This document shows positions 11,900-41,972 of a DNA stretch of 48,362 bases, piece after piece. Both the position numbers and the translations under genes were made by a program. The stretch spans positions 1 through 48,362 of the forward strand of contig JALHLV010000028.1 of NCBI GenBank assembly GCA_022844405.1. The letters run 5' to 3'. The stretch is from Sphingomonadales bacterium. Lineage in GTDB: Bacteria; Pseudomonadota; Alphaproteobacteria; SMXS01. Position 1 is the first letter of the stretch, and each line of letters begins with the position of its first letter. A model generated the notes under the pieces. That model saw only the letters and a program-made list of their open reading frames with translations, searched no databases and had not been told where the DNA came from.

Positions 11900-11916
11900 T
11901 ATATGTGCGCGGCGCA
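11900..11916. promoter_or_regulatory. Near-palindrome upstream of the MarR gene
   Basis: TATGTGC-GCG-GCGCATA: 7-bp arms with one mismatch and a 3-bp spacer, 10 bp upstream of the proposed MarR start. MarR proteins usually bind 16-20-bp palindromes at their own promoter, so this is a candidate operator. Confidence 0.4.
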
Positions 11917-11926
11917 TAGACAGCAA

Positions 11927-12282
11927 GTCATGACATACAACGCTTTAACTGGGGGCTAGATGAGTAAAGGTCTGTATTGAAAGAGATTATTCGACTCCTG
12001 TTGGACGAAGTAGGTGAGAAATTCGGGCAGAACTCATGACGGTCGCTGAAGAGATCGATGTCTGGCGGCTATGGCCTCAAGAGCGCTTGGCGGGCGCCGC
12101 AATTGGGATCCTCACGGTCGCTTCAATCACAGCTGGAGGTAGGGGTCGGCAGTTCGACCCTGCTCAAGTAGATCATCAGTCGAACAAGGCGGTGCTTGTG
12201 AAGTCCAAGCGAAGGTTAGACGCGCAAACGTCGGAGCTTCGCTCGACGGAAAATCGAGTGCGACGCCCCGAGGAACAAGACG
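11927..12282. other. Intergenic region before egtB
   Basis: About 360 bp between the divergent MarR and egtB genes. An open frame exists at 12036-12404 but has no recognisable product and overlaps egtB. Except for the tRNA-T-arm-like stretch at 12138-12170, I see nothing clear. Confidence 0.4.
12138..12170 (+). repeat. tRNA-T-arm-like direct repeat, copy A
   Basis: Begins GGTAGGGGTCGGCAGTTCGA, which looks like the variable loop and T-arm of a tRNA (stem GGCAG/CTGCT around loop TTCGACC). No acceptor stem, D-arm or anticodon arm can be folded around it. A related sequence lies at 25203-25235 in the same orientation; both are preceded by TTCAATC about 15 nt upstream. It could be a tRNA relic or attachment-site scar. 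Confidence 0.4.
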
Positions 12283-13566
12283 ATGTCCTACCCTCAAGAT
12301 CGCCTATGTCTGACGCCCGTGCATCTGGACTGGGCAGGTCTGCGCGACGCCTATCGCAGAGTCAGAAGCACGACTGCAGACCTTGTTGCGCCCCTGACGC
12401 CTGAGGACGCGCAGGTCCAGTCCATGCCTGACGCGAGCCCGACGAAATGGCATCTGGCTCATACGACCTGGTTCTTCGAGACGTTTGTTCTCGTGCCCAG
12501 CGCGCCCGGCTACAACCGCTTCGACGATCGCTTCGCTTACTTGTTCAACTCGTATTACGAGGCTGCCGGTCCACGTCACGACCGTAAGGCCAGAGGCCTC
12601 GTCACGCGTCCAGGTCTCGATGAGATATTTGCCTATAGGGCCCACGTCGATACGGCGATGATGGCGCTTCTTGAGCAGGGCGGGGCCCATGCGGACGAGA
12701 TGGCGCGCCTTATCGAACTTGGCCTGCACCATGAGCAACAACATCAGGAACTGATCCTGATGGACATCAAGCATGCCTTCGCCGGCAACCCCATCGAGCC
12801 GTCCTATGCGCCTCCCATCGCGGACAACGGAGCGTCGCCCAGGAAGCAAGGTCGCGCGGTGGAATGGGTTTCGTTTGCTGGAGGGCTGAAGCAGATTGGC
12901 CATGCAGGCTCCGCCTTCGCCTTTGACAACGAAGGTCCACGCCACAAAGTCTGGCTCGAACCTTTCCAGCTAGCCGACAGGCTCGTGACGTGCGGCGAGT
13001 ATCTGGAGTTCATGGCCGACGGAGCTTATCAGCGACCTGATCTCTGGCTGTCTGAAGGTTGGGCGACGGTTCAAGCGTCCCAATGGCGCGCCCCGCTTTA
13101 CTGGCGAGAAGAGACGTCGGGTTGGACGACCTTCACACTGTGCGGACGTCGATTGGTCGATCGGGAGGAGCCAGTTGTCCACGTATCATTTTACGAGGCA
13201 GATGCGTTTGCGCGATGGGCAAACGCGAGGCTTCCGACCGAAGCCGAATGGGAGACCGCCGCGGAGGCTCTAGCGGTATCGAGCAGTGGGCTTCGACTTC
13301 ATCCACGACCTGCCAGTAACGAGGCTGGGCTGCGGCAGATGACCGGAGAAGTCTGGGCTTGGACTGCGAGCGCCTATCTCGCGTATCCGGGCTTCGCCGC
13401 CGCGAGCGGCGCAGTCGGGGAATACAACGGCAAATTCATGTCGAACCAGATGGTCTTGCGAGGATCCGCCTGCGTCACGCCTGAAGGTCATGCGCGGGCG
13501 ACCTATCGCAATTTCTTTCCGCCGGCGAGCCGGTGGGCGTTCTCGGGCTTGCGGCTCGCCAGATGA
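12283..13566 (+). CDS. egtB: Ergothioneine biosynthesis sulfoxide synthase EgtB
   Basis: 427 residues. EgtB is a mononuclear non-haem iron enzyme joining hercynine and a cysteine donor with O2 to give a sulfoxide. The N-terminal DinB-like domain holds the iron site: His57/His60 in 'KWHLAHTTWFFE' and His150/His154 in 'HHEQQHQELIL' (HX3HXE). The C-terminal formylglycine-generating-like domain includes 'WVSFAGGLKQIG', 'RLPTEAEWE', 'TGEVWAWTASAY' and 'ATYRNFFPP' with a final 'GLRLAR'. The ATG at 12283 follows GAGGAA by about 8 nt. EgtD lies 2.8 kb downstream, separated by a hydrolase and an AraC gene. No EgtA or EgtC is seen, so the donor (cysteine or gamma-glutamylcysteine) is open. Confidence 0.95.
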   Translation: MSYPQDRLCLTPVHLDWAGLRDAYRRVRSTTADLVAPLTPEDAQVQSMPDASPTKWHLAHTTWFFETFVLVPSAPGYNRFDDRFAYLFNSYYEAAGPRHDRKARGLVTRPGLDEIFAYRAHVDTAMMALLEQGGAHADEMARLIELGLHHEQQHQELILMDIKHAFAGNPIEPSYAPPIADNGASPRKQGRAVEWVSFAGGLKQIGHAGSAFAFDNEGPRHKVWLEPFQLADRLVTCGEYLEFMADGAYQRPDLWLSEGWATVQASQWRAPLYWREETSGWTTFTLCGRRLVDREEPVVHVSFYEADAFARWANARLPTEAEWETAAEALAVSSSGLRLHPRPASNEAGLRQMTGEVWAWTASAYLAYPGFAAASGAVGEYNGKFMSNQMVLRGSACVTPEGHARATYRNFFPPASRWAFSGLRLAR

Positions 13567-27942: not shown

Positions 27943-27954
27943 TGTCGTCACCCG

Positions 27955-27970
27955 GTAATGGTCGTTACCA
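27955..27970. promoter_or_regulatory. Operator candidate GGTAA-N6-TTACC (copy 1)
   Basis: Inverted repeat GGTAA/TTACC with a 6-bp spacer between the divergent emrA-like and TetR genes. It repeats at 27983-28000 with the same arm sequence and spacer; the centres are 29 bp apart. Repression of both directions by the adjacent TetR protein is likely. Confidence 0.65.
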
Positions 27971-27982
27971 CTGGACAGATAT

Positions 27983-28000
27983 GGTAATAGGCGTTACCAG
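27983..28000. promoter_or_regulatory. Operator candidate TGGTAA-N6-TTACCA (copy 2)
   Basis: Perfect 6-bp arms around TAGGCG; the better of the two sites. It lies 34 bp upstream of the TetR start. Confidence 0.68.
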
Positions 28001-28686: not shown

Positions 28687-29436
28687 TCATAGCAGCGCCA
28701 TCCCGCCATCAACCATCAGGTTCACGCCGGTGACAAAGCTGCTGGCATCAGACGCGAGAAACAGCGCCGCGCGTGCAATTTCTTCGGGTTGCGCCATTCT
28801 TCCCAATGGGATGGCTGCGGCGACGGCAGATTTGAACTCATCCATGCGCTCGGGTGGCACGCCCTGATTGTGAATGATCGCAGTCTCTGTCGGTCCCGGG
28901 CTCAGCACATTCACGCGAATCCCGCGAGCCTTGAACTCCAGCGCCCAGTTGCGAACAAATGCGCCTACGGCTGCCTTCGTGCCAGCGTAGACGGCATGCC
29001 CGTCGAGGGGCTTGCTGCCCGCGATCGAGCCAACGATGACGATAGCACCGCCATTGCGGATGACGGGGCCGAGCTTCTGAACACCGAAAAAGACACCTCG
29101 CGCATTAGTGTTGAAGAGGGCGTCGTACGTCTCGGGCGCGACCTCTCGCGATTGAGCGATGCTGTTTATGCCGGCATTGGCGACATAGATATCCAGGCCG
29201 CCAAAGCGCGACTGCATCTCACGCGCCAAGGTCTCGTGATGGGAGACGTCGGCGACGTCACCCGCTATCCCGAGTGCGCCATCTCCCAGCGTTTCAGCGG
29301 CCGATCGGATTTCACTTTCCCTGCGGCCGGTGATGACGACCTTGGCGCCTGCGCTGTGGAGGAGCGTGGCAATCGAGAGGCCGATACCGCCGCTGGCGCC
29401 GGTCACAAGCGCGATTTTTCCGTCCAGATCCGACAT
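28687..29436 (-). CDS. SDR-family oxidoreductase
   Basis: 249 residues, classical SDR: 'LVTGASGGIGLSIATLL', 'VITGRRESE', 'GDVADVS', 'VANAGIN', Ser of 'IVGSIAG', 'YAGTKAAVGAFVRNWALEF' (Tyr/Lys), 'SPGPTETAI' and C-terminal 'FVTGVNLMVDGG'. The Arg after TGR favours NADPH. The substrate cannot be read from sequence. It is convergent with the TetR gene and divergent from the histidine kinase operon. Confidence 0.88.
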   Translation of the reverse strand: MSDLDGKIALVTGASGGIGLSIATLLHSAGAKVVITGRRESEIRSAAETLGDGALGIAGDVADVSHHETLAREMQSRFGGLDIYVANAGINSIAQSREVAPETYDALFNTNARGVFFGVQKLGPVIRNGGAIVIVGSIAGSKPLDGHAVYAGTKAAVGAFVRNWALEFKARGIRVNVLSPGPTETAIIHNQGVPPERMDEFKSAVAAAIPLGRMAQPEEIARAALFLASDASSFVTGVNLMVDGGMALL

Positions 29437-29683: not shown

Positions 29684-32600
29684 ATGACCATGACGATGAA
29701 CTCGCATGGCGACCAGGACGCTGCGGACGTGCGAGCTGCGCAGCTCATTGAAGGCGTCGTTGGGAATGCATGGGCAACTGACGCTTCGGGAAAATTCACT
29801 TACGTCAGCCACGCCATGCTCGCGCTCCTCGGAGCAACGCTGCGGGATCTCAACTCCTCCCCAGAAGATGACGGCCTTGGCTGGAGACGCATGATCCATC
29901 CAGATGATTGTCAGGCGGTGGTCGCCGCATGGCGTCACAGCGTGCGGACAGGCGACCGTTTCAATGTCGCATGTCGCATGATCGGTGCAGCCAATACTTG
30001 TGTGCGAGCTCGATGCTCAGGCCAGCCGTTGCGAGACAACGATGGCCGCATCTTCGGGTGGTATGGCGCATTCATCGATGGTGAGGGCCCGTCAGCATGG
30101 TCTGATCGAGGTGAGGCGGGCGCAGAACACGAGAGGCTGCCCCATGACGAGGTGACCGCGTCCGACGTTCAAAGGAAAACCGAGGAGACGCTGCGTGAGT
30201 CCGAGCGTGCTTTGCGCGAACTCGTCGAAACTCTACCCGCACGAATCTGGTGCACGACGCCGGGCGGCGAGCCTTTCTATTTCAGTCGACAACTACGCGA
30301 GTATTACGGCTTCAACATGGACGCGAAGGACGACGCGGACATTTCGCGGCTGGGCGCTATCCTGAGCGCGACGATCCATCCGGACGATCTGGAAAAAGTG
30401 GGAAAGCTCTTTGCGCAAAGCCTGGCGACGGGAGAACCTTACGCGGTTCGCCACCGTCAGCGGCGTCATGACGGAGTGTATCGCTGGGTTCAAACCCACG
30501 CGACTGCCATGCGCGACGTCAACGGCCAGATCGAGCGCTGGAACGGTGTCAACTACGACATCGACGACCTGGTGAGTGCGCAAGAGTCATTGCGCGCCGG
30601 CGAACTTCGACTTCAACAGCTGATCGATACTGTGCCTGCTCCGATATGGGGAACGAACGCGGAAGGCGAGCCATCGTATATAAACAAGCCGCTGCAAGAA
30701 TACTCCGGCATTTCGCTCGATGCGCTTAATGTTCCGGACAGGACCAGGTTGGCGTCGGCCATCGGCGGCGCGGTCCATCCCGATGATGCCGATGTCGTAC
30801 GCGAGGCTTTACGTCACTCGTTCACCTCGGGCGAGCGCTTCGCCCTGAAGTACCGTCATCGGCGCGCCGACGGCTCGTATCGCTGGGTTGATGGGCAAGC
30901 GGAGCCGCTGCGGGATACGGATGGCCGGATCCTGCAATGGTATGGTGTGTGTCTCGATATCGACGATGAAGTGCGCTCGCAGGAAACCCTTCGCGCGCGT
31001 GAGCGGGAACTCTCCCAGCTCATTGATATGGTCCCAAGCCATATCTGGCGCCTGAGCCCGGACGGAGAGCCGATCTTCTTCAACAAGCGGATGGTCGACT
31101 ACCTCAGGATGGACGTGGCTGACATTGCGACGCCGGGCAGGAGCCGCTTGCAAGCTCTTGTGAGCGCTGTTCATCCCGAAGACGCCTCGGGCTTCGAGAA
31201 AGCGCTACGTCGCAGTCTCGCCACCGGTGAAAGCTTCGCCATGCAGTATCGACTGCGTCGCTCTGATGGCGTTTACCGCTGGATGTCAGGCCGAGCCGAA
31301 CCCATGCGGGATGACAGCGAACGCATCGTGCAATGGTTTGGCCTCTGCCACGACATAGACGATCAGATGCGGCTCTACAGCGACATCGCTGAACGAGAAG
31401 CCAGGATCCGGCGACTGGTCGATTCAGACATCATCGGCATCGTCATCTGGGACCTGGACGGCACACTCATTGATGCCAACGACGCTTTTCTGCGCATGGT
31501 CCAGTACGACCGGGAGGATGTGAAGGCTGGAATTCGCTGGTTGGACATGACGCCTCCGGAGTGGCAGGAAGTCCACGCTCGCGAGGAGGCCGAAGAGCTC
31601 GCGGCGACGGGGAAAATGCAGCCTCGTGAGAAGGAATACTTCAGGAAGGACGGAAGCCGAGTTCCGATTCTGATCGGTGCGGCATGCTTCGATGGCCAGT
31701 CTCAGCAAGGCGTCGCCTATATTCTGGATCTGACCGAGCGCAAACGAGCCGAGGAAGCGTTGCGCGAGAGCGAGCGGTCCTTGCGGGAGCTCGTCGAGAC
31801 GCTGCCGGCCATGATCGATTGTGCAACGCCAGATGGCGAGCCGGTTTTCAGAAGCCGGGGTCTCCGCGAATTCCTAGGCTACAATCTCGAAGACCTGGAT
31901 GACGCCGAATCCCGCCTAGCTTCCACGCTCGATGCGGGCGTTCATCCCGATGACCTTGCGGGAGTAAAGAAGGCGTATGCCCATTCGCTCTCGACCGGAC
32001 AGCCTTACGCCCGGCGCCATCGCCTCCGCCGGTTCGACGGCGAGTACCGGTGGGTTGAAACGCGCGCGGCGCCCATGCGCAACGTCGAGGGTGTTATTGT
32101 TCAATGGAATGTCGTCTGTCTCGATATCGACGGAGAGGTGCGAACCCAGGAGGAGCTCCGCCTTTCGCAGGAAAAACTGGCGCGCGCGGGGCAGGCGGCC
32201 AGCCTCGCTGAGCTTTCGGCGTCCATTGCGCACGAGGTAAACCAGCCGCTGGCAGCAGTTGTGGCCAACTCGCACGCCTGCCAGCGATGGCTGACAGCCG
32301 AGCCCCCCAACCTTGACCGTGCCAGGATCACGGTCGAGCGAATTATCCGCGACGCGAATTCGGCGGCGGATGTGGTCAGTCACATAAGAGCCCTGTTCAA
32401 ACAGACGCTTTACCCGCGAACAGCATCGTCCCTGGGCGAACTGATCGCAGAGGTACGAGGTCTGATGGCCGACGAGCTTCGGAAGAACGGCGTAACCGTT
32501 GTGGTTGAGCTTGATGCTGAAATGCCGCCAGTCGCGTTCGATCGCGTCCAGTTGCAGCAAGTTCTGGTCAATCTCATGCGCAACGCGGTGGAGGCAATGT

Positions 32601-32875
32601 CGTCGGTCAGGGGGGCGCGCACGATGATCGTTCGCGCGCAAACAAGCGGGGAGGCGATCGAGGTGAGGGTCAGCGACAGCGGCGTTGGCATTCCCATGCC
32701 GGACAAGATCTTTGAGCCCTTCTTCACAACGAAGGAGAACGGGATGGGTATGGGTCTCGCCGTCAGCCGATCAATCGTCGAGTCGCACGGTGGTCGGCTG
32801 TGGGCAGAGAACAACGACGAGAAAGGTTCGACCTTCGTCTTCACCTTGCCGGTCAAAGCGAAGGACCCGGAATGA
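29684..32875 (+). CDS. Cytosolic multi-PAS hybrid-less sensor histidine kinase
   Basis: 1063 residues without membrane segments. Six PAS-type modules can be counted, about residues 20-120, 170-295, 300-425, 435-560, 570-680 and 690-815; modules 2, 3, 4 and 6 are close internal repeats, each opening with 'E..L..LI(D/E)T(V/L)P' and a 'GEP' turn, and sharing 'HPDD' and 'Y(R)W' motifs. The phosphoacceptor is His850 in 'SASIAHEVNQPLAAVVAN'. The ATPase domain has 'LVNLMRNAVEAM' (N box), 'DSGVGIP', 'FEPFFTTKENGMGMGLAVSR'. This DHp type (HEVNQPLAA) pairs with FixJ-like regulators. The ATG at 29684 has GGAGAGG upstream; a TTG at 29642 opens the frame. Signal unknown; no haem-ligand call is justified. 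Confidence 0.9.
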   Translation: MTMTMNSHGDQDAADVRAAQLIEGVVGNAWATDASGKFTYVSHAMLALLGATLRDLNSSPEDDGLGWRRMIHPDDCQAVVAAWRHSVRTGDRFNVACRMIGAANTCVRARCSGQPLRDNDGRIFGWYGAFIDGEGPSAWSDRGEAGAEHERLPHDEVTASDVQRKTEETLRESERALRELVETLPARIWCTTPGGEPFYFSRQLREYYGFNMDAKDDADISRLGAILSATIHPDDLEKVGKLFAQSLATGEPYAVRHRQRRHDGVYRWVQTHATAMRDVNGQIERWNGVNYDIDDLVSAQESLRAGELRLQQLIDTVPAPIWGTNAEGEPSYINKPLQEYSGISLDALNVPDRTRLASAIGGAVHPDDADVVREALRHSFTSGERFALKYRHRRADGSYRWVDGQAEPLRDTDGRILQWYGVCLDIDDEVRSQETLRARERELSQLIDMVPSHIWRLSPDGEPIFFNKRMVDYLRMDVADIATPGRSRLQALVSAVHPEDASGFEKALRRSLATGESFAMQYRLRRSDGVYRWMSGRAEPMRDDSERIVQWFGLCHDIDDQMRLYSDIAEREARIRRLVDSDIIGIVIWDLDGTLIDANDAFLRMVQYDREDVKAGIRWLDMTPPEWQEVHAREEAEELAATGKMQPREKEYFRKDGSRVPILIGAACFDGQSQQGVAYILDLTERKRAEEALRESERSLRELVETLPAMIDCATPDGEPVFRSRGLREFLGYNLEDLDDAESRLASTLDAGVHPDDLAGVKKAYAHSLSTGQPYARRHRLRRFDGEYRWVETRAAPMRNVEGVIVQWNVVCLDIDGEVRTQEELRLSQEKLARAGQAASLAELSASIAHEVNQPLAAVVANSHACQRWLTAEPPNLDRARITVERIIRDANSAADVVSHIRALFKQTLYPRTASSLGELIAEVRGLMADELRKNGVTVVVELDAEMPPVAFDRVQLQQVLVNLMRNAVEAMSSVRGARTMIVRAQTSGEAIEVRVSDSGVGIPMPDKIFEPFFTTKENGMGMGLAVSRSIVESHGGRLWAENNDEKGSTFVFTLPVKAKDPE

Positions 32876-33513
32876 AGGCGACTGACTACATTGTGTACAT
32901 CGTCGATGATGACGAGCGAGTCCGCGAGGCCTTGATCGAACTCCTGGCCTCCCATGGAGCGCGAGCAAGCGCTTTTGGGTCTGCGGGCGCGTACGTGGCC
33001 GCGGATAAGCCTGATCTCCCCGCGTGCCTGATCCTCGACGTTGAGCTCCCGGACATCAATGGCCTGGATTTTCAGAAGCAGATCTCCAATGGCGATCATC
33101 CGCCTGTCGTCTTCATCACAGGGCATGGCGACATCCCGTCGTCGGTCCGTGCGATCAAGCACGGCGCAGTCGATTTTCTTACCAAGCCTTTCAGTGACAA
33201 GGACCTGATGGGCGCCGTCCATTCCGCCGTTGCGAAAGATACGCAGGCGCGCGCGGAACGGGCCGACCTCGCAGCGTTGAAGGAACGCTATCTTGATCTG
33301 ACGCCGCGGGAGCGAGACGTCCTGCCTTTGGTCGTGAGCGGGCTTTTGAACAAGCAGGCCGCTGCCGAGCTTGGCATCAGCGAGGTGACGCTCCAGATTC
33401 ATCGCCGCAATGTAATGCAGAAGATGGGCGTCGTGTCTCTCGCCGACCTCGTCCGGGTCGCAGAGAGGCTTCAGATTCCGGTAACGCACTCCCGCCGCCC
33501 AGGTGGTGCATGA
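32872..33513 (+). CDS. FixJ-type response regulator (receiver + LuxR HTH), RR1
   Basis: 213 residues. Receiver domain: acidic pocket 'VDDDERVREAL', phospho-Asp56 in 'LILDVELPDINGLD', Thr in 'FITGHGDIPSS', Lys in 'DFLTKPF'. From about residue 145 an output LuxR/GerE HTH: 'LTPRERDVLPLVVSGLLNKQ' and 'ELGISEVTLQIHRRNVMQKM'. Start overlaps the kinase stop (ATGA). Phosphorylation by the upstream kinase and activation of a sigma-70 promoter are the natural expectation. Confidence 0.92.
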   Translation: MKATDYIVYIVDDDERVREALIELLASHGARASAFGSAGAYVAADKPDLPACLILDVELPDINGLDFQKQISNGDHPPVVFITGHGDIPSSVRAIKHGAVDFLTKPFSDKDLMGAVHSAVAKDTQARAERADLAALKERYLDLTPRERDVLPLVVSGLLNKQAAAELGISEVTLQIHRRNVMQKMGVVSLADLVRVAERLQIPVTHSRRPGGA

Positions 33514-33902
33514 CCGATCACGTACGAGCCGTTATCGCCGTGGTAGATGACGATCCGCGCGTTCTCGAGTCGCTCGAAAATCTGTTCCAGTCCGGTGGTT
33601 ACGACGTGCAGACCTACTCGTCGGGAGCGTCGCTTCTGGAGAGCGACGTGACCATTATTGATTGTCTCATCACGGACGTCGGCATGCCGGGTATGGACGG
33701 CTTCGAACTGCGCGAGCGTGTTAGGGAAGAGCGGCCCGCACTGCCGGTCTTCATGATTTCCGGTCGGCACGATTTGACGAGCGGCAGACGGCTGGCCGGC
33801 CAAGGCGACATTGGATTTTTCAGCAAGCCTTTCGACGGCCGGGCGTTGCTGGCCGCCGTCGACAAGGCGTTGCGCGATGCAAAGGGAGGACGAACGAAAT
33901 GA
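33510..33902 (+). CDS. Single-domain response regulator, RR2
   Basis: 130 residues, receiver only. 'AVVDDDPRVLESLENLF' acidic pocket, phospho-Asp56 in 'CLITDVGMPGMDGFELRERV', Ser in 'FMISGRHD', Lys in 'GFFSKPFDG'. No output domain. It may be a phosphate sink or relay for the kinase, or a protein-interaction switch, as with FixJ-family partners in other alphaproteobacteria. Overlaps RR1 and RR3 by 4 bp each (ATGA), so all four genes are translated together. Confidence 0.9.
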   Translation: MTDHVRAVIAVVDDDPRVLESLENLFQSGGYDVQTYSSGASLLESDVTIIDCLITDVGMPGMDGFELRERVREERPALPVFMISGRHDLTSGRRLAGQGDIGFFSKPFDGRALLAAVDKALRDAKGGRTK

Positions 33903-34591
33903 GCGGCCAGCCGGTGCTATCGTCAGCAGTCCCTAAGCCTGCGCCAAACATGCGTGATAAGGCCGAACGGCCGGTCGTTTCGATTGTCGATGACGACCCG
34001 GCTGTGCGCGAGGCGCTCCATGAGCTTATGCAGTCTGCTGGATTGGAGGCTGCTCACTTCCCATCAACGAGAGACTTGCTTGATTCCGGAGTCCTTATGC
34101 GGCCCGGATGTCTTGTCCTCGATGTGCGGATGCCAGGAACAAGTGGGTTGGATCTGCAACATCACCTTGTGAGCAGCGGCAATCCAAAGCCGATCGTCTT
34201 TCTTACCGGCCATGGTGACATCCCGATGACCGTGCAGGCAATGAAGGCGGGAGCCGTCGACTTTCTCACCAAGCCGGTCCGTGACCAGACCCTGCTGGAC
34301 GCGGTGCTCGCGGGCATCGAGCGGGATATCGTGCAAAGAGCTGAGAACGCTCTGATGAACCGAAATATGGAACGCCTGGAGAGGCTCACTCCCCGAGAAC
34401 GTCAGGTCCTTCGCGAAGTTGCGCTCGGTCGACTCAACAAGCAGATCGCGTTCGACCTGGGCATCAGCGAGGTCACGGTGAAACTTCACCGCGGCAACGT
34501 CATGCGGAAGATGGAGGCGTTGTCCGTCGGGGAACTCATTCGCGGTTGGGAAGCACTGCCTGCTCATGTGCGTCAACCGCCCGCAACCTAG
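33899..34591 (+). CDS. FixJ-type response regulator (receiver + LuxR HTH), RR3
   Basis: 230 residues with an extra ~25-residue N-terminal lead. Receiver: 'SIVDDDPAVREALHELMQ', phospho-Asp75 in 'CLVLDVRMPGTSGLDLQ', 'FLTGHGDIPMTVQAMKAGAV', Lys in 'DFLTKPV'. Output HTH: 'LTPRERQVLREVALGRLNKQ', 'LGISEVTVKLHRGNVMRKM'. It is the paralogue of RR1 with the same HTH architecture but diverged. The gene after it is an NmrA-like oxidoreductase 110 bp downstream, a candidate target. Confidence 0.92.
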   Translation: MSGQPVLSSAVPKPAPNMRDKAERPVVSIVDDDPAVREALHELMQSAGLEAAHFPSTRDLLDSGVLMRPGCLVLDVRMPGTSGLDLQHHLVSSGNPKPIVFLTGHGDIPMTVQAMKAGAVDFLTKPVRDQTLLDAVLAGIERDIVQRAENALMNRNMERLERLTPRERQVLREVALGRLNKQIAFDLGISEVTVKLHRGNVMRKMEALSVGELIRGWEALPAHVRQPPAT

Positions 34592-34702
34592 TGGACTGAG
34601 CGCTTCTGTACTGCACTTTGGAATAGGATGACGAATACCTCCGCCCAATAGGATCGCCTCCACGCAAGACCCATTCTCCTTTGCATCAGCGAGGAGATGG
34701 AC

Positions 34703-35455
34703 ATGAAGATGGTGGTTATAGGCGGCAGCGGACTGATCGGCTCAAAGGTCGTCGCGCATCTTCGCGAGAAAGGCCACGACGTCGTTGCGGCCTCTCCGGC
34801 AAGCGGCGTCAACACCATCACAGGCGAAGGGCTCGTTGACGCGCTTTCAGGCGCCCAGGTCGTTGTCGACGTCGCCAACGCTCCCGTCTTTGAAGACCAG
34901 GCGGTGATGGACTTCTTCCAGACGGCCGGCCGTAACCTCATGGCGGCGGAGAAGGCGGCAGGGGTGAAACACCACCTCGCACTCTCGGTTGTAGGCGCCG
35001 AGCGACTGCGGGAAAGCGGCTACATGCGCGCGAAACTGGCGCAGGAGGCCCTGATCAGCGCGTCGGGCGTCCCGTACACAATCCTTCATTCGACCCAGTT
35101 CTTCGAGTTCCTCACATCCATCGCGCAGGCAGGAGCAGCAGGGCAGGAGATCCGAGTCTCACCGGCCATGATCCAGCCGATCGCAGCCAGTGATGCCGCG
35201 CGCGTCCTCGCAGAACTTGCGATGGAGCCGGCCCGCAATGCTGTCGTGGAGGTGGCCGGACCCGAGGTCGGCGCGTTGGACGAATTTGCGCGCAGACGGC
35301 TGGCGGCGGCCAAGGATAGGCGGGTTGTCACAGCAGACCCCCACGCGCGCTATTTCGGCGCCGAGCTGACTGACGCGTCGCTTACGCCGGGCGCCAACGC
35401 CGTGCTCGGCGCCACCCGCTTCGAGGACTGGCTTGGGCAGGCGTCCGCGCCATGA
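34703..35455 (+). CDS. NmrA-like NAD(P)-binding protein, paralogue 1
   Basis: 250 residues, atypical SDR of the NmrA/YwnB kind: 'VVIGGSGLIGSKVVAHLREK' nucleotide site, 'ASPASGVNTITGEGL', 'LALSVVGAERLRESGY', 'AKLAQEALISASGVPYTILH', 'FFEFL' and 'AGPEVGALDEFARR'. These motifs recur in three other genes here (37502, 40409, 41199). The Tyr in 'GYMRAKLAQE' with the downstream Lys could be catalytic; similar proteins act as NADPH sensors, quinone reductases or epimerase-like enzymes. GAGGAG lies 8 nt before ATG 34703, making it better than the ATG two codons earlier. Coupled by ATGA to the next gene. Confidence 0.85.
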   Translation: MKMVVIGGSGLIGSKVVAHLREKGHDVVAASPASGVNTITGEGLVDALSGAQVVVDVANAPVFEDQAVMDFFQTAGRNLMAAEKAAGVKHHLALSVVGAERLRESGYMRAKLAQEALISASGVPYTILHSTQFFEFLTSIAQAGAAGQEIRVSPAMIQPIAASDAARVLAELAMEPARNAVVEVAGPEVGALDEFARRRLAAAKDRRVVTADPHARYFGAELTDASLTPGANAVLGATRFEDWLGQASAP

Positions 35456-36435
35456 CCGCCCCGTTCCAGGTCTCAGAAACCACGCGCCGCGGCATTCTCG
35501 TCGGCGGCGTCGCTCTTACCGCAGTGGCTGCGTTGTGGGCGTCCACTCAAGAGGACCTGCGCAGCGCCGCCCCCCAGATCCCAGACCCAACCCAAGGAAA
35601 CAGCGCCATGAGCTCGATCACCACCCAGGACGGCACGCAGATCTTTTACAAGGACTGGGGCCCGAGGGACGCGCAACCCATCGTTTTCCATCATGGCTGG
35701 CCGCTAACCGGAGACGACTGGGACACGCAGATGCTCTTTTTCCTGGGGAAGGGCTATCGGGTGATCGCGCATGACAGGCGCGGGCACGGACGGTCCAGTC
35801 AGACCTCGACTGGCCACGACATGGATATCTACGCGGCCGATGTCGCCGCCGTCGTTTCGGCTCTCGATCTCAAGGGCGCCATTCACATCGGTCACTCCAC
35901 AGGCGGCGGCGAAGCGGCACGCTATGTGGCGCAGCACGGCAAGGCGCGCACCGCAAAACTCGTTCTTATTGGGGCGGTGCCGCCAGTCATGGCCAAAACG
36001 GCAACAAACCCGGATGGCATCCCTATCGATGTACTTGACGGCATCAGAGCGGGTCTGGCTGCCAATCGATCTGCTTTCTACTGGGACTTCATCGTGGCGT
36101 TCTATGGCTACAATCGTCCGGGGGTCACTGTGAACGAACAGGTGCGCCTCAACTGGTGGCGTCAGGCCATGATGGGCGCCGCTAACGCTCAATATGAATG
36201 CGTAAAGGCATTCTCCGAGACGGACTTCACCGAAGACCTCAAGCGGATCGATGCGCCAACATTGGTCCTGCATGGGGACGACGATCAGATAGTGCCGATC
36301 GCCCGCTCCGCGCTGCTCTCGGCAAAGCTTGTGAAGCATGGAACGCTCAAGGTCTATCCCGGCCTGCCGCACGGCATGTGCACCACACATGCGGATCGCA
36401 TCAACGCGGATCTGCTCGCTTTCATCAGGTCTTAG
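35452..36435 (+). CDS. Alpha/beta hydrolase, non-haem chloroperoxidase-like, with Tat-type leader
   Basis: 327 residues. The N-terminus has a twin-arginine-like leader ('TTRRGILVGGVALTAVAALW'). The catalytic domain matches cofactor-free haloperoxidase/esterase proteins: 'FHHGWPLTGDDWDTQM', 'AHDRRGHGRSSQ', nucleophile Ser in 'HIGHSTGGGEAARY', Asp in 'LVLHGDDDQIVPI', His in 'GLPHGMCTTHAD'. Likely exported esterase/perhydrolase; the haloperoxidase reaction is usually incidental in this family. The start overlaps the stop of NmrA-like paralogue 1. The next gene is a cupin. Confidence 0.88.
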   Translation: MTAPFQVSETTRRGILVGGVALTAVAALWASTQEDLRSAAPQIPDPTQGNSAMSSITTQDGTQIFYKDWGPRDAQPIVFHHGWPLTGDDWDTQMLFFLGKGYRVIAHDRRGHGRSSQTSTGHDMDIYAADVAAVVSALDLKGAIHIGHSTGGGEAARYVAQHGKARTAKLVLIGAVPPVMAKTATNPDGIPIDVLDGIRAGLAANRSAFYWDFIVAFYGYNRPGVTVNEQVRLNWWRQAMMGAANAQYECVKAFSETDFTEDLKRIDAPTLVLHGDDDQIVPIARSALLSAKLVKHGTLKVYPGLPHGMCTTHADRINADLLAFIRS

Positions 36436-36472
36436 GCCAAGCTCATCCCATCCGATTGCAGGAGAATTCTGC

Positions 36473-36889
36473 ATGTTTGCCAAACTCATTCTCGCGGCGG
36501 CGCTTGCAACGACAGGCGCTTGCACGACGACCGCCGGGGTGCCTTCCAAAGAGAGGGCAAAAGTGACGTTGGTCTACGACCAAATACTACCCAACGTACC
36601 GGGGAAAAGCCTGCGCGGCGTTCTGGTTGAGTACGCGCCTGGAACGACGTCTCCCGGGCACACACATCCCCGGTCCGCATTTATCTACGCGACGGTTCTA
36701 GAAGGTGCGGTACGGAGCCAGGTCAACGACGGGCCGGTGACGGTCTATCGCGCCGGCGAAAGCTTCTCGGAGTTTCCGGGCGATCGGCACAGCCTCAGCG
36801 CCAACGCAAGCAGTACAGAGCGCGCCCGCTTGCTGGCCGTGTTCGTTGTGGACACGAACGAGACAACACTCGCAACCGACATCGAATAA
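36473..36889 (+). CDS. Cupin-domain protein, probably exported
   Basis: 138 residues. An N-terminal leader ('FAKLILAAALATTGACTT') ends in a lipobox-like Thr-Gly-Ala-Cys, so the product may be a periplasmic lipoprotein. The cupin_2 barrel shows 'EYAPGTTSPGHTHPRSAFIY' (metal-binding His-x-His) and 'GESFSEFPGDRHSLSANAS' (second-motif His). Small cupins of this type bind a metal and may act on or sequester small molecules. AGGAG lies 8 nt before the ATG. It follows the hydrolase by 37 bp. Confidence 0.82.
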   Translation: MFAKLILAAALATTGACTTTAGVPSKERAKVTLVYDQILPNVPGKSLRGVLVEYAPGTTSPGHTHPRSAFIYATVLEGAVRSQVNDGPVTVYRAGESFSEFPGDRHSLSANASSTERARLLAVFVVDTNETTLATDIE

Positions 36890-36911
36890 ATCATCTGAAG
36901 GACACAAACTG

Positions 36912-37421
36912 ATGAACACCACCAACAAGGCGCCACCATCGGCCGTGAACCGCGCCAACTACGCCGAGCAATCGCCCGAGCTCCTGAGCAAATTCGTTCT
37001 CGTGCTCGGCGCGATCCGGAACAGCGCCATCGAGGAATCGATCCGCGACCTCGTCGCTATTCGCACCTCGCAGATGAACGGCTGCACCTTCTGCCTCGAC
37101 ATGCATGTGAAGCAGGCCAAGATCCATGGTGAGCGCGAGCTACGGCTCTACCATCTCGCGGCCTGGCGGGATTCGACGCTCTTCGCACCGCGTGAGCGCG
37201 CCGCCCTGGCGTGGACCGAAATCCTGACCAAGTTGCCGGAGCAGGGCGTGCCCGATGACATCTATGATCGCGTGCGCTCCCAGCTCTCCGAGAAAGAAAT
37301 CTCGGACCTGTCATTCCTCGTCGTCGTCATGAACTCCTGGAACCGCTTGAATGTCGGCTTCAGAACCATCCCGGGATCGGCCGACGCTATGTATGGCCTT
37401 GAGAAAGCGTCGCTGAGCTAG
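36912..37421 (+). CDS. Carboxymuconolactone decarboxylase / AhpD-like alkylhydroperoxidase
   Basis: 169 residues. The AhpD core motif is complete: Cys58 and Cys61 with His65 in 'MNGCTFCLDMHVKQA', preceded by 'RDLVAIRTSQ', followed by 'LAAWRDSTLFAPRERAALAW'. Members with CxxC...H have thiol-dependent peroxidase activity; the older name decarboxylase comes from a related family. AAGGA precedes the ATG. In the same direction and 22 bp after the cupin gene. Fits the oxidant/electrophile theme of the region. Confidence 0.9.
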   Translation: MNTTNKAPPSAVNRANYAEQSPELLSKFVLVLGAIRNSAIEESIRDLVAIRTSQMNGCTFCLDMHVKQAKIHGERELRLYHLAAWRDSTLFAPRERAALAWTEILTKLPEQGVPDDIYDRVRSQLSEKEISDLSFLVVVMNSWNRLNVGFRTIPGSADAMYGLEKASLS

Positions 37422-37437
37422 CGGCGTTTGAAGGCGC

Positions 37438-37481
37438 CCCGCAGTTGCAAATCATCGACGACAGATGATTGCAATTGCGGG
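37438..37481 (+). terminator. Long hairpin between the AhpD-like gene and NmrA paralogue 2
   Basis: CCCGCAGTTGCAAATCATC (37438-37456) pairs with GATGATTGCAATTGCGGG (37464-37481), 18 bp with one bulge and one mismatch, loop GACGACA. There is no T-run. It ends just before the ribosome binding site of the next gene, so it may act as a terminator, an mRNA-stability element or an attenuator. Confidence 0.5.
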
Positions 37482-37501
37482 CCCGCCGACAGGAGATTTG
37501 C

Positions 37502-38254
37502 ATGCGCATCGTCGTCGCGGGCGGCACAGGTCTGATCGGCGAACGCGTCGTGCGACTGCTGCAAGAACAATCTCATGACGTAGTCGTGGTTTCGCGCTCC
37601 ACCGGCGTTGACCTGGAGACCGGCAAGGGGTTGGCCGAAGCGCTTGTAGGGGCGGAGGTTGTTGTCGATGTCGCCGATACGCCGGATCTCGAGGGGCAAG
37701 CCCCTTTGAGGTTCTTCGACCGCTCGTCAAAGAACCTGGCCGCCGCAGAACTGCACGCGGGCGTTCAGCACCATGTAGGTCTTTCGATCGTCGGCGTCGA
37801 TCGTCTGGAAAGCAACTACTTCTGGGCGAAGACGGCGCAGGAGGCGATCTTCCGAAATGCCTCCGTCCATCACACGATTGTTCGCTCGACGCAGTTCTTC
37901 GAACTCGTCAATCGCGTCCTGCATGCTACCGCCGGCTTGGACACTGTCCGTCTGCCGCCAGCGCTGGTGCAGCCGATCGCGTCGGATGATGTCGCCGAAG
38001 CCCTGTCGCAACTCGCCGTGTTGCCGGCGCTCAACGCGACGATCGAGCTGGCAGGCCCCGAGAAGATCCCCCTCAGCGAGTTGGCGCGGCTGATGTTGAG
38101 CGCACGGGAAGATCCGCGCCCCGTGATTTCAGACGTGAGTGCAACCTTCTTCGGCGCCGAGCTTGGCTATCAATCGCTTGTGCCCGGGCCGGGCGCGCGC
38201 ATTGCGCAGACGACGTTCGCGGATTGGCTGAGGCAACAGATCCGCGCGGACTAG
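37502..38254 (+). CDS. NmrA-like NAD(P)-binding protein, paralogue 2
   Basis: 250 residues. 'IVVAGGTGLIGERVVRLLQE', 'VVVSRSTGVDLETGKGLAEA', 'VVVDVADTPDLEGQAPLRFF', 'VGLSIVGVDRLESNYFWAKT', 'FFELV' and 'AGPEKIPLSELARL' align with the other three copies. The signature Tyr/Lys pair is 'NYFWAKTAQE'. The substrate is unknown. GGAG lies 9 nt before the ATG at 37502, which is preferred over the longer frame. It follows the hairpin and precedes an exported hydrolase. Confidence 0.84.
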   Translation: MRIVVAGGTGLIGERVVRLLQEQSHDVVVVSRSTGVDLETGKGLAEALVGAEVVVDVADTPDLEGQAPLRFFDRSSKNLAAAELHAGVQHHVGLSIVGVDRLESNYFWAKTAQEAIFRNASVHHTIVRSTQFFELVNRVLHATAGLDTVRLPPALVQPIASDDVAEALSQLAVLPALNATIELAGPEKIPLSELARLMLSAREDPRPVISDVSATFFGAELGYQSLVPGPGARIAQTTFADWLRQQIRAD

Positions 38255-38363
38255 CCGTCGATCCCGTGTCTGCGGCGACCTATACGTTGGCAGAGTAGCG
38301 AGCCGGATTGGAGCCAACCATCTCCCCAGCATTGGCCGCGCTCGGCGGTGATGGAGAGAAGAG

Positions 38364-39164
38364 ATGTCCAAGATTATTGCAGCAGTTTCGGTGGCTGCCG
38401 CGCTTGCCTTGCAAGGCGGCGCAGACGCCCAAACGAAGGCGCCCGAACCAAAGCCTACCATCGTTCTTGTCCACGGGGCATTTGCCGAGTCCTCAAGCTG
38501 GGACGGCGTCATTCGCAAGCTGAACAAGGACGGCTACCACGTCATCGCCGCAGCCAATCCGCTTCGCAGCCTGGCCGGAGATGCAGTCGCCATCTCGCTG
38601 GTTGTGCGGTCCGTGTCTGGTCCCGTCGTGCTCGTGGGTCACTCATACGGCGGGCCAGTCATTACGGAAGCTGCAAACGGCAGCACCAATGTCACGGCGC
38701 TGGTTTACGTCGCAGGCTTCGCGCCGGAACGCGGCGAATCGAGCCTCAGCCTTTCCGGGAAATTCCCGGGCAGCACGCTTGGTGCGGCGCTCTATCAGGT
38801 GAAGAGTTCCGACGGCGATGTGGATCTGTTCATTCAACCGGACAAATTTCACGCGCAGTTTGCCGCTGATGTACCCCTGGAGCAGGCTCAGCTCATGGCG
38901 GCGACCCAAAGGCCTGTTACCCAGGCTGCGCTGAGCGAGGCGTCGGGCGCGCCGGCATGGAAAACCTTGCCGACCTACATGATCTACGGGTCGGCCGATC
39001 GCAATATTCCCGCCGAGGTCCTGAAGTTCATGGCGGAACGTGCGAACGCCCGGAAGACGGTTGTTGTCGAAGGAGCGTCTCATGCGGTGATGGTGTCGCA
39101 TCCCGACCAGGTCGCCGCACTGATCGAGGAAGCCGCAAAGCCGCAGTCCTGGGTCAAACGATAA
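38364..39164 (+). CDS. Exported alpha/beta hydrolase
   Basis: 266 residues. A Sec-type signal peptide ('IIAAVSVAAALALQGGADAQ', Ala-x-Ala cleavage) is followed by 'TIVLVHGAFAESSSWDGVIR', nucleophile elbow 'LVGHSYGGPVITEAA', Asp in 'MIYGSADRNIPAE' and His in 'VEGASHAVMVSHPDQV'. It resembles the family sometimes annotated as carboxylesterase/methylesterase. The 38255-38363 gap separates it from the NmrA-like gene. A hairpin at 39184-39214 ends the unit. Confidence 0.88.
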   Translation: MSKIIAAVSVAAALALQGGADAQTKAPEPKPTIVLVHGAFAESSSWDGVIRKLNKDGYHVIAAANPLRSLAGDAVAISLVVRSVSGPVVLVGHSYGGPVITEAANGSTNVTALVYVAGFAPERGESSLSLSGKFPGSTLGAALYQVKSSDGDVDLFIQPDKFHAQFAADVPLEQAQLMAATQRPVTQAALSEASGAPAWKTLPTYMIYGSADRNIPAEVLKFMAERANARKTVVVEGASHAVMVSHPDQVAALIEEAAKPQSWVKR

Positions 39165-39183
39165 GCTGTCTACTCTGATGCTC

Positions 39184-39214
39184 TGACCTGCTTCGTCTAT
39201 GGCGAGGCAGGTCA
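39184..39214 (+). terminator. Terminator-like hairpin after the exported hydrolase
   Basis: TGACCTGCTTCG pairs with CGAGGCAGGTCA (12 bp with one G-T), loop TCTATGG. It is 20 bp past the hydrolase stop. No clear T-run follows. Confidence 0.55.
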
Positions 39215-39323
39215 GGTGCGTTATGAGCATAGTGCAGCTGGTTCAGTTGCGGGAAACCACAGCCAGTGCTGCCGCACGCCCATCGTCACGGCACGCCCAA
39301 CCTTGATACCCGACGGATGTGGC

Positions 39324-40136
39324 TTACGGGGCGCTGGCGCCCGCGCGGACTTCCGGATTGAGGACCGAAGACAGCGCTGCTGACAGCACCGTTGCAGCGG
39401 GGAGTCGCATGGTGACTGTCGTCCCGGCGCCTGGTGCGCTTGCGATCATCAGGCTTCCGCCGGCTTGCTCCGCAAAACGCTTGACCATTGGCAGCCCGAC
39501 GCCGCCGACGCCATTGGCCTTTGTGGTAAAGTAGGGATCGAAGACACGGTCGATCAGCTCTGGCGACATGCCCACCCCGGTGTCAGTCACCCGGATTTCG
39601 ACGTCCGACCCAGATGATCGGTCGTAGGTCTCGCCCGCGAAGATCGAGACAATGCCACCTCTCGGCATTGCCTCGCGCGCGTTGAACACGAGGTTGAGAA
39701 TCGCATTCTGCAATTCAAGGCGGTTCGCCGTCACAGCCAACCCGTCCGAGTCGGTCCGGATATGAAGCCGTATATTGGAATTCAGCATGGGCAGGATGAG
39801 GTTACCGACCTCTGCAAGACAGGCGGTCATGTTCACGTGCTCCAGAAGCGGCGAGCCGCTACGGGCAGACTCTATCGTCTGGCGCACAATTGCCCCCGCA
39901 CGTTCCAGCGCGGCTGTTGCGCCGGCGACAAGCGGGGCAAGTTCTTCTGGCGTCGCCATGTCTGACTTGCGCCGGATAAGGCTCACCGCGGAGTATGCGA
40001 CCTGAATGAGGTTGCCGAGATCATGGACGATGCCCACGCCATGGGCGTCGTCCTGGAATGAGTCTCTCAGCATCCCCATCCGTGGGCCGGCGACGAATAT
40101 CGCCGTGCGACCTGGCGGCTTCAGTGTGTGCGTCAT
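39324..40136 (-). CDS. Sensor-less soluble histidine kinase
   Basis: 270 residues: only a dimerisation/phosphoacceptor domain and an ATPase domain. The His is in 'GIVHDLGNLIQVAYSAVSLI' and the ATPase shows 'QNAILNLVFNAREAM' (N box), 'DTGVGMSPELIDRVFDPYFT', 'GVGGVGLPMVKRFAEQAGGS' (G2 box). No transmembrane, PAS or GAF part is present; the first 30 residues are unremarkable. Such HDLGN kinases often work with separate sensors or receiver proteins; the response regulator operon 5 kb away is a candidate partner. Opposite strand to its neighbours. Confidence 0.86.
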   Translation of the reverse strand: MTHTLKPPGRTAIFVAGPRMGMLRDSFQDDAHGVGIVHDLGNLIQVAYSAVSLIRRKSDMATPEELAPLVAGATAALERAGAIVRQTIESARSGSPLLEHVNMTACLAEVGNLILPMLNSNIRLHIRTDSDGLAVTANRLELQNAILNLVFNAREAMPRGGIVSIFAGETYDRSSGSDVEIRVTDTGVGMSPELIDRVFDPYFTTKANGVGGVGLPMVKRFAEQAGGSLMIASAPGAGTTVTMRLPAATVLSAALSSVLNPEVRAGASAP

Positions 40137-40408
40137 GCGTTTCTCCCGACTGTTTGGCCGGCACGTACCGGCATCAGCGATGACGAGACGCTATGCCAGA
40201 GGCGCACACGGGATCGACGGGATGGAAGGCGGGGTCGTCACATACCTTGGTATGGTTCACGCACCGGTGGTTCAGAAAATTCGGGCGATTGGGCGAATAC
40301 CTATACCGCTGGATAGGTCGGCCTCTTCCTTCATCCAGTCCCTCGCGCGCCATCGACGGCATAACTTGTCCAGTATGACCGAGATGGTCGTTGATCGAGG
40401 CAACGCAG

Positions 40409-41197
40409 ATGAAGATCGTGGTGATCGGCGGCAGTGGTCGCATCGGTGAGAAGCTGGTCTACAATCTGCGGCAGGATGATTTCCGCGTTCTGGAAGCCTC
40501 GCCATCCTTCGGCGTCAACACAGTGACGGGCGAGGGTCTTGAGGCAGCGCTGACCGGCGCGAATGTCGTCGTGGATGTCTCAAACTCGCCGTCCCTCGAA
40601 GGGGACGCGCCCCTCCGGTTCTTCGAGACTTCCGGACGCAATCTTCTCGCTGCGGGCAGGGCAGCTGGTGTCGGCCATCACGTCGCTCTCTCTGTCGTCG
40701 GCACAGACCGCATGACGGCGAGCTCATATTTCCGTGCGAAGAAAATCCAGGAAGATCTGATCAAGGCCTCGACCCTTCCATATACCATCCTGCGGTCGAC
40801 GCCGTTCTTCGAAGTGATCAGCGCAGTCGCGCAGGAAGGCACGAGCAGTGACGTTGTCATTTCGCCGGCCTGGGTTAGGCCGATCGCGGCTGAGGATCTG
40901 GCGCAGGCGCTCGCAGACACCGCCACGGGTGATCCCCTTAATCGAACAATCGAAGTGGCCGGGCCCGAAAGGTTTCGTTTCGACTATCTCGCGACGGAAG
41001 TGCTGACGGCCTACGAGGATCCGCGCCGCATTATCTCCGACCCGCACGCCCTCTACTTTGGCGCAGAGCTGGACGATCAGTCGCTCGAGCCAGGACCGGC
41101 TGCGCTCATTGCAACCCTGCGGTTCGAGGACTGGCTGCGCGACACCCTGCAACCCGAGGCCGTCGCGCCGCGCGCACACAAGCAGCGGAGAGCCTGA
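40409..41197 (+). CDS. NmrA-like NAD(P)-binding protein, paralogue 3
   Basis: 262 residues. 'IVVIGGSGRIGEKLVYNLRQ', 'ASPSFGVNTVTGEGLEAALT', 'VVVDVSNSPSLEGDAPLRFF', 'VALSVVGTDRMTASSYFRAK', 'PYTILRSTPFFEVI' and 'AGPERFRFDYLATE' mark the family. GAGG lies 7-8 nt before ATG 40409; the frame opens six codons earlier. An upstream stretch with CCTATACC and GGATAGG (near 40300) resembles a regulatory dyad. One base separates the stop from paralogue 4, which suggests one transcript and perhaps a heterodimer. Confidence 0.86.
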   Translation: MKIVVIGGSGRIGEKLVYNLRQDDFRVLEASPSFGVNTVTGEGLEAALTGANVVVDVSNSPSLEGDAPLRFFETSGRNLLAAGRAAGVGHHVALSVVGTDRMTASSYFRAKKIQEDLIKASTLPYTILRSTPFFEVISAVAQEGTSSDVVISPAWVRPIAAEDLAQALADTATGDPLNRTIEVAGPERFRFDYLATEVLTAYEDPRRIISDPHALYFGAELDDQSLEPGPAALIATLRFEDWLRDTLQPEAVAPRAHKQRRA

Positions 41198-41198
41198 G

Positions 41199-41972
41199 AT
41201 GAAGATCGTTGTTCTGGGTGGCGCCGGCATGGTCGGCAAGCGGGTTGTGGAGCGGCTATCGGTTGGCGAACATGAGATTGTCGCCGCTTCGCGCAGGACA
41301 GGCGTTGATGTCCTCACTACCGAAGGACTGGCAGCCGCTGTCAAAGGCGCGGATGTCGTGATCGACGTCGTCAATTCCCCGTCGTTTGAAGGCGACGTTG
41401 CGATCCCGTTCTTCGAGACCTCCACACGAAACATCCTGTCGGCGGCCGCCAACGCCGGCGTGCGACGCCACATCGTCTTGTCCATCGTTGGCGCCGAGCG
41501 TCTCAGCGCCAACGGCTACTTCCGCGCAAAGCTGGCGCAGGAGCGTCTCGTTGAGGGAGGCGGGCTCCCATACACAATCCTTCGCGCGACACAGTTCTTC
41601 GAATTCCTTGATCGCATCATCCGGGCAGGGACCGCAGGGGATGAAGTCCATATAGCTCCGGCCCGTGTCCATCCGATTGCTGCGGGAGACGCCGCTTCAG
41701 CGCTGGCTGACATTGCCATGGCCCGTCAGGTTGACGGGACGATCGAGATCGCGGGGCCGGATTCCTTCAAACTCGATCAGCTCGTACGCATTTTCATGTC
41801 GGCGATGAACGACAGGCGCCAGGTGATCACGGATCCCGATGCGCTCTATTTCGGCACCAGGCTGACCGACGAAACGCTCATGGCCGGAGGAAATCCCCGG
41901 TTTGGTCACACCGACTTCGACAGCTGGTTCAGGCGCCTGAAAATCACAGCGCCAGCCGGCGCTGCCCACTGA
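41199..41972 (+). CDS. NmrA-like NAD(P)-binding protein, paralogue 4
   Basis: 257 residues. 'IVVLGGAGMVGKRVVERLSV', 'ASRRTGVDVLTTEGLAAAVK', 'VVIDVVNSPSFEGDVAIPFF', 'IVLSIVGAERLSANGYFRAK', 'PYTILRATQFFEFLDRIIRA' and 'AGPDSFKLDQLVRI'. Closest in feel to paralogue 1. It lies 1 bp after paralogue 3 and 27 bp before a beta-class GST gene; the row 3-4-GST-hydrolase is one likely operon. Substrate unknown. Confidence 0.86.
   Translation: MKIVVLGGAGMVGKRVVERLSVGEHEIVAASRRTGVDVLTTEGLAAAVKGADVVIDVVNSPSFEGDVAIPFFETSTRNILSAAANAGVRRHIVLSIVGAERLSANGYFRAKLAQERLVEGGGLPYTILRATQFFEFLDRIIRAGTAGDEVHIAPARVHPIAAGDAASALADIAMARQVDGTIEIAGPDSFKLDQLVRIFMSAMNDRRQVITDPDALYFGTRLTDETLMAGGNPRFGHTDFDSWFRRLKITAPAGAAH

Follow-up and report, generated by a model that had tools for sequence, protein, structure and literature searches.

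Positions 29684-34591 on the forward strand of a 48,362-nucleotide stretch of DNA from a Sphingomonadales bacterium (hereafter the window; contig JALHLV010000028.1 of GenBank assembly GCA_022844405.1, which comprises 3.78 Mb in 41 contigs) encode a row of four proteins, namely a histidine kinase (HK) followed by three response regulators (RR1, RR2 and RR3). Pfam profiles recover Response_reg and GerE domains in both RR1 and RR3, which are 49% identical to each other, and Response_reg as the only domain of RR2, in agreement with a preliminary description of this DNA that had recognized two regulators with LuxR-type outputs and a middle one devoid of an output. The row appears to be an old unit and, because it recurs in many rhizobia beside genes of a detoxification type, also a real signalling unit built of ordinary parts. 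We tentatively interpret it as a branched two-component circuit that is passed on as a single cassette, in which HK would feed the outputs RR1 and RR3 while RR2 might act as a sink or buffer of phosphate, a reading that we consider plausible although somewhat short of evenly balanced.

Being the unusual member of the row, RR2 was used as the anchor for collecting 39 loci, which comprise the window, the two best of 71 loci recovered by search (L009 and L010), 18 stretches from genome assemblies and 18 plasmid matches chosen for variety, the last of these being partly redundant as related Rhizobium strains are found among them; the remaining 69 search loci, with RR2 matches no stronger than E = 4e-17, were excluded from the orthologs. 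The four genes occur in the order HK-RR1-RR2-RR3 on one strand in 27 of the 39 loci, i.e. in the window, 15/18 genome-assembly loci, 11/18 plasmid loci and neither of the two search loci; 25 of these rows were recovered by script, and two (L112 and L134), which had been mis-sorted by it, were read from the comparison by eye. Bias due to the anchor was addressed by searching with RR1 and the HK core across 397 genomes belonging to the order of G370, a genome with one of the closest RR2 relatives (see below), the best 7-10 candidates per genome being scored, so that misses are possible. RR1 recovered 23 places at E <= 1e-62: the 14 with at least 59% identity all adjoin RR2, each in a different genome, and none of the nine at 50-56% does so. 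Similarly, the HK core recovered 26 places at E <= 1e-60, with RR2 lying within 6 kb in 15/21 of those scoring at least 241 bits and in 0/5 of those at 207-213 bits. The conservation of the three-regulator order in relatives, which had been named as a check on the earlier proposal, is thus borne out by both the 27/39 loci and the 14/14 adjacent pairs. Pairwise distances of the four proteins are also correlated over 26 full rows (r = 0.82-0.88), a value to which shared organismal history contributes.

With respect to phyletic distribution, RR2 is found at E <= 1e-20 in 13/387 genomes of the host's class, the host included, and reaches at least 55% identity in three of them (the host, G178 and G370). 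At E <= 1e-25 it is present in 3/11 genomes of the family of G178 and 15/397 genomes of the order of G370, and at E <= 1e-15 in 252 plasmid records, mostly of Rhizobium (132) and Sinorhizobium (74). The named loci that were fetched belong to Hyphomicrobiales according to their records, and the row-carrying genomes are listed in the host's class. Among the nine other genomes of the host's family, which are all those examined of its order and two of which are less than 90% complete, none has an RR2 match at E <= 1e-20 or an RR1 match above 49% identity; this absence of an ortholog could reflect either horizontal gain by the host or loss by those relatives. A search for near-identical plasmid DNA recovered matches to 86 records, none over 80% of the query, and no recent donor was identified; the 20 plasmid matches listed cover about 3% of the query at 72-73% identity, and one record outside them matches at 90-95%.

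The proteins of the row display the canonical features of a HisKA two-component system, namely the kinase histidine with N, D and G boxes and the receiver Asp, Thr/Ser and Lys. In the aligned kinases the glutamate that accompanies the phospho-acceptor histidine is, like the histidine itself, present in 38/38, and the N, D and G boxes are present in 37/38, L131 being gapped there. In RR2 the acidic triad, the phospho-acceptor Asp and the Lys are retained in 37/37 sequences, as is a Thr or Ser (35 Thr, 2 Ser, the window having Ser84), indicating that it lacks the hallmark of a pseudo-receiver, i.e. loss of key phosphorylation residues; the RR2 domains of L010 and L134 lie inside the RR1 frame and are hence outside these counts. 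The phosphorylation residues are likewise complete in RR1 (32 sequences) and RR3 (35 sequences) wherever the aligned frame has letters, with gaps at these columns in RR1 of L135 and RR3 of L009, L140 and L142. As the receivers retain these residues, the arbitration of phosphate by the middle receiver that had been suggested earlier is possible. The recognition helices, mostly TLQIHRRN in RR1 and TVKLHR(S/G)N in RR3, are kept within each family and differ between the two; if Lys188, Val189 and Lys192 of NarL, which we take to be its DNA contacts, occupy equivalent positions of the helix, two of the three contacts would differ in kind between RR1 and RR3.

Comparison of the presumed kinase-docking patch (taken as alpha-1 plus the beta-5/alpha-5 loop) covered 31 candidates, among them 29 other receiver hits that came from 30 of the 38 receiver places; here each of RR1, RR2 and RR3 has the other two as its best matches. 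When the full domain is compared, RR2 scores 128 and 132 against RR1 and RR3, scarcely more than the 123 that it reaches with another receiver. The likeness of the patches fits a common kinase, although it is no proof of one.

The sensor half of HK shows a different evolutionary behavior. Pfam profiles detect PAS_3 in five stretches, one PAS_9-type module, HisKA and HATPase_c, and six PAS modules emerge from a model derived from the window together with its relatives; a crude Kyte-Doolittle scan found no membrane segment in HK (maximum 1.32), so that the earlier picture of a soluble six-PAS kinase holds. The same description had regarded four of the modules as close internal repeats arising from recent expansion. 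P2, P3, P4 and P6 indeed resemble each other, but only moderately (36-60% amino-acid identity), and the notion of a recent expansion is rejected: third codon positions are saturated, with 33-41% identity among these four modules and 24-38% in pairs involving P1 or P5, and five of the six modules (P1, P3, P4, P5 and P6) are each nearer to modules of kinases from other species than to any in their own protein when 149 modules are compared. Given this low third-position identity and the location of the nearest relatives elsewhere, the modules are old types. The 39 kinase frames compared, which leave out that of L125 and take in a second one of L134, contain 1-8 PAS modules each, mostly arranged end to end at about 125-133 residues, and zero to seven predicted membrane segments. 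Last PAS modules share a mean identity of 64% between loci, against 42% for the other PAS modules. Thus, the output side, comprising the last PAS module, the kinase core and the receivers, is constant across the loci and the sensor half is variable. An AlphaFold model of the constant module P6 has a mean pLDDT of 67.

Each of the three junctions in the row is an ATGA overlap, as had previously been described (Table 1). However, the same four-base overlap is seen at two other gene pairs of the window (NmrA1/ABH at 35452 and EmrA/EmrB at 26911); hence, the overlaps by themselves say little about the row, and its above-chance status rests on conservation rather than on them. The accompanying idea that the four proteins are made in fixed proportion does not follow from the overlaps either, because each regulator is preceded by its own Shine-Dalgarno-like sequence with unequal predicted anti-Shine-Dalgarno pairing (RR1 -5.9, RR2 -7.2 and RR3 -11.3 kcal/mol) and some junctions in other loci are gaps or longer overlaps, the starts there being estimated from alignment. 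Promoter and terminator scans gave fewer sites than shuffled sequence (1 vs 2.5; 4 vs 7.7).

Contextual information from neighboring genes offers clues regarding potential targets. Homologs of the window's genes were sought by tblastn (E <= 1e-15) in 38 loci and in 15 control regions of 18 kb taken from 15 of the same genomes. The NmrA-like reductase, alpha/beta hydrolase and cupin encoded downstream of the row are found near it far above the control (Table 1), and for this reason constitute the best candidate regulon. When only the 15 genomes with a control are considered at 50% identity or more, the reductase is found in 9/15, the hydrolase in 8/15 and the cupin in 5/15, with 0/15 controls in each case. 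The efflux pair is rarer near the row (EmrA 6/38, EmrB 5/38, control 0), and no homologs of the TetR gene of the window were detected near it in the 38 loci.

Table 1. Coordinates of the row, its sub-features and the proposed target genes within the window
Feature	Position	Strand	Description	Basis
HK	29684..32875	+	Histidine kinase, 1063 aa; six PAS modules, HisKA, HATPase_c; no predicted membrane segment	Pfam, PAS model, hydropathy scan
PAS P1	29735..30109	+	aa 18-142; nearest are first PAS modules of other loci, 46-50% identity	
PAS P2	30197..30595	+	aa 172-304; 61% to own P6, 60% to L009/L010 modules (a tie)	
PAS P3	30596..30994	+	aa 305-437; other loci up to 61%, own protein at most 46%	
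PAS P4	30995..31390	+	aa 438-569; other loci up to 67%, own protein at most 46%	
PAS P5	31391..31765	+	aa 570-694; PAS_9 type; L120 module 86%, L112 module 82%, rest of 149 modules <=26%	
PAS P6	31766..32155	+	aa 695-824; constant last PAS; last PAS modules of other loci up to 84% identity	
His850 codon	32231..32233	+	Phospho-acceptor (AHEVNQP); H in 38/38 aligned kinases	
HK/RR1 overlap	32872..32875	+	ATGA	
RR1	32872..33513	+	Receiver and LuxR/GerE output, 213 aa; phospho-acceptor Asp56	Pfam, alignment
RR1/RR2 overlap	33510..33513	+	ATGA	
RR2	33510..33902	+	Single-domain receiver, 130 aa; catalytic set Asp56, Ser84, Lys106	Pfam, alignment
RR2/RR3 overlap	33899..33902	+	ATGA	
RR3	33899..34591	+	Receiver and LuxR/GerE output, 230 aa; phospho-acceptor Asp75	Pfam, alignment
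SDR dehydrogenase	28687..29436	-	Divergent; proposed target; homologs in 18/38 loci vs 2/15 controls	Pfam
NmrA-like reductase (NmrA1)	34697-35455	+	Proposed target; homologs in 28/38 loci vs 0/15 controls	Pfam
Alpha/beta hydrolase (ABH)	35452-36435	+	Proposed target; homologs in 19/38 loci vs 0/15 controls	Pfam
Cupin	frame 36338-36889, start probably near 36473	+	Proposed target; homologs in 19/38 loci vs 0/15 controls	Pfam

The region downstream of the row (34697-41972) contains four NmrA-like/NAD(P)-binding reductase paralogs, at 34697, 37499, 40409 and 41199, interleaved with alpha/beta hydrolases, the cupin and a CMD/AhpD-type protein. At 39324-40136, on the reverse strand, there is also a sensor-less kinase-like protein of 270 aa with HATPase_c as its sole recognized domain, homologs of which lie near the row in L122 and L124 (56% and 51%) and, more weakly, in three more loci and one control. 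Further away, the intergenic region between the divergent TetR and EmrA genes contains two 16-base palindromes of the form GGTAAT-N4-GTTACC (27954-27969 and 27983-27998), a pattern with 4 matches over both strands against 0.5 expected; these are likely to be TetR operators. Another gene of the window (12283-13566) encodes a protein combining DinB_2 and FGE-sulfatase domains, presumably the domain pair of EgtB-like ergothioneine enzymes.

The above-described architectural and contextual observations suggest the following mechanism. The cytoplasmic HK would sense a cue through its PAS array, autophosphorylate on His850 and pass phosphate to the three co-encoded receivers. RR1 and RR3, as transcription factors of the FixJ/NodW type, would read different but related DNA sites and activate two sets of promoters, their likely targets being the neighboring genes for the NmrA-like reductase, the alpha/beta hydrolase, the cupin and the SDR, which form a set of detoxification type. 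RR2 might compete for, store or return phosphate, thereby shaping the strength and duration of RR1 and RR3 activity. The sensor half would be interchangeable between species, such that the same core could be driven by different cues. Phosphotransfer to all three receivers, the role of RR2, the targets and the kind of signal are what we infer from the sequence. In such shuttling or storage, MrrA, an alphaproteobacterial single-domain receiver described as moving phosphate between kinases, and LovR, which together with the kinase LovK is described as a phosphate sink (both in the available part of PMC5964349), would be precedents. A more speculative and rather less probable extension is that the row is a horizontally moving, plug-in phospho-circuit, in which a constant core of last PAS module, kinase and three receivers splits one phosphate stream between two DNA-binding outputs by means of RR2, and each lineage builds its sensor half, with a membrane part or lacking one, out of an old pool of PAS modules of about 130 residues, such that dissimilar cues might elicit the same two-output detoxification program.

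Several observations weigh against the branched circuit. Twelve of the 39 loci do not have the full row: L124 lacks RR1 and has RR3 6.4 kb upstream, L125 has a divergent kinase next to an intact RR1-RR2-RR3, L126 lacks RR3 beside RR2, seven of the 18 plasmid loci (L129-L132 and L140-L142) are without an adjacent RR1, and in L009 and L010 RR1-RR2 precedes a kinase for which several membrane helices are predicted. Six of the HK-core places scoring at least 241 bits (one each in G787 and G671, two each in G749 and G540) have no RR2 nearby. RR2 is the least conserved regulator, with 49-61% identity to that of the window, which may mean an accessory role, and between the window and its nearest full row it is also the most distant member (0.45, against 0.33 for HK, 0.32 for RR3 and 0.20 for RR1). 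The columns taken as the docking patch were selected on the basis of what is generally known of kinase-receiver complexes. In L134 (Ensifer canadensis) RR1 and RR2 are encoded in one uninterrupted frame (7311-8390), a possible natural fusion, but the record annotates the start of RR2 as a separate gene inside this long frame, so that the fusion may not be real. Neither did the regions upstream of the neighboring genes reveal a shared operator: dyad counts peaked at 17 against 18 in the shuffled set, pairwise word matches were weak except for one of 14 bases between two intergenic regions, and an expectation-maximization search, while scoring above its shuffles (120 vs 72 and 81; 154 vs 94 and 100), returned triplet-periodic, coding-like patterns from inputs that included operon-internal coding sequence.

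Certain of these loci have further peculiarities. L009 (9043-9351 and 10714-12831) and L010 (1556-5006), from Sinorhizobium terangae and Ensifer sp., respectively carry a kinase remnant and a frame-disturbed RR1 beside RR2, and the kinase downstream has a single PAS module in addition to its predicted membrane helices; the arrangement looks as if the sensor had been replaced. In L134 two further kinases with the same core (97-3894 and 10211-13144) flank the row, and G749, G787, G671 and G540 also possess more than one such kinase.

The likeliest alternative makes RR2 an independent output, which once phosphorylated would bind and control another protein or inhibit the kinase without any arbitration; we consider this possible, if rather unlikely. 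One precedent involves CckA, a hybrid kinase. It is described as being inhibited directly by the single-domain regulator Osp (in the available part of PMC9430884), and another single-domain receiver is described as activating a phosphoglycosyl transferase (likewise for PMC12802240). In L129, L130, L140, L141 and L142 the kinase lies beside RR2 without an adjacent RR1, so that RR2 can evidently remain beside the kinase where RR1 is missing. The full phosphorylation set and the docking patch shared with RR1 and RR3 fit competition for one kinase, yet would be compatible with an output role as well. More doubtful is the proposal that the kinase serves mainly one output, RR1, with RR2 and RR3 being duplicated extras that receive phosphate weakly or conditionally. 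RR1 is the most conserved regulator, with a mean distance of 0.22 over the 26 full rows as against 0.30 for RR3 and 0.32 for RR2, and a member or the order is missing in the 12 loci discussed above; however, RR3 retains catalytic residues and a conserved recognition helix of its own, and adjoins RR2 in 16/18 genome-assembly loci (L112 read by eye).

The NodV/NodW and NwsA/NwsB systems of Bradyrhizobium combine a kinase with a REC-LuxR regulator. The row resembles them in this respect and in the names that depositors gave to its relatives (NodV-like, NodW 1, CheY-like and NodW-like in Rhizobium etli IE4803, nwsB in R. etli CIAT 652), and differs from these pairs in its second REC-LuxR regulator and receiver-only protein. 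That the row is simply this flavonoid-sensing pair plus extra receivers is improbable, as the names are presumably similarity-based, flavonoid induction of nod genes is what defines NodV and NodW, and the available part of a B. japonicum paper treats NodV/NodW as a two-component system and names no third receiver (PMC4070704). Elsewhere, a figure legend of PMC9239051 describes NodV and NodW gene trees, the available part of PMC7945327 deals with a single FixJ-family regulator, and that of PMC3164228 records nwsB in S. meliloti BL225C alone, a gene that may or may not be the same as the one in the row.

The branched circuit can also be compared with other systems. RR1 has the same order of REC and GerE domains as the regulators of FixL/FixJ and StyS/StyR, and its top-scoring solved structures are 1yio, which we take to be StyR, and FixJ (5xso). 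In contrast to FixL/FixJ, the proteins of the row score below the NCBIfam equivalog cut-offs (HK 351.4 vs 850 for NF041777, the FixL model; RR1 182.2 and RR3 200.6 vs 255 for NF006900, the FixJ model), and by this measure do not qualify as FixL and FixJ. RR2 is reminiscent of the hub receivers MrrA and SdrG of the FATGUY family in being an alphaproteobacterial single-domain receiver, these being described as passing phosphate between kinases, but it shares its row with a kinase and two outputs. Moreover, where that family has the motif PFXFATG(G/Y) according to PMC5964349, RR2 reads PVFMISGR in the window and PVFLITGR in a consensus drawn from 37 sequences, so that by its motif RR2 is not a FATGUY receiver. 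Osp is likewise described as a receiver-like protein acting on a kinase (PMC9430884); RR2 differs from it in being encoded between two DNA-binding regulators and in keeping its phosphorylation residues, and the hybrid nature of CckA is a further difference. No paper on the row as a unit was recognized among the titles and abstract beginnings returned by searches of openly licensed papers. The row is a set of ordinary parts in an unusual, conserved combination of which those searches found no description.

The textbook two-component system pairs a single kinase with a single regulator. Here a kinase stays together with two DNA-binding regulators and a receiver-only protein in many rhizobia, plasmids included; such a row offers a test case for the sharing of phosphate between outputs, and its variable PAS arrays provide a way to ask how new sensors join a fixed output. 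As its neighbors encode NmrA-like reductases, hydrolases and cupins, and as it is often carried on plasmids of plant-associated bacteria, the row may explain part of the answer of rhizobia to plant chemicals.

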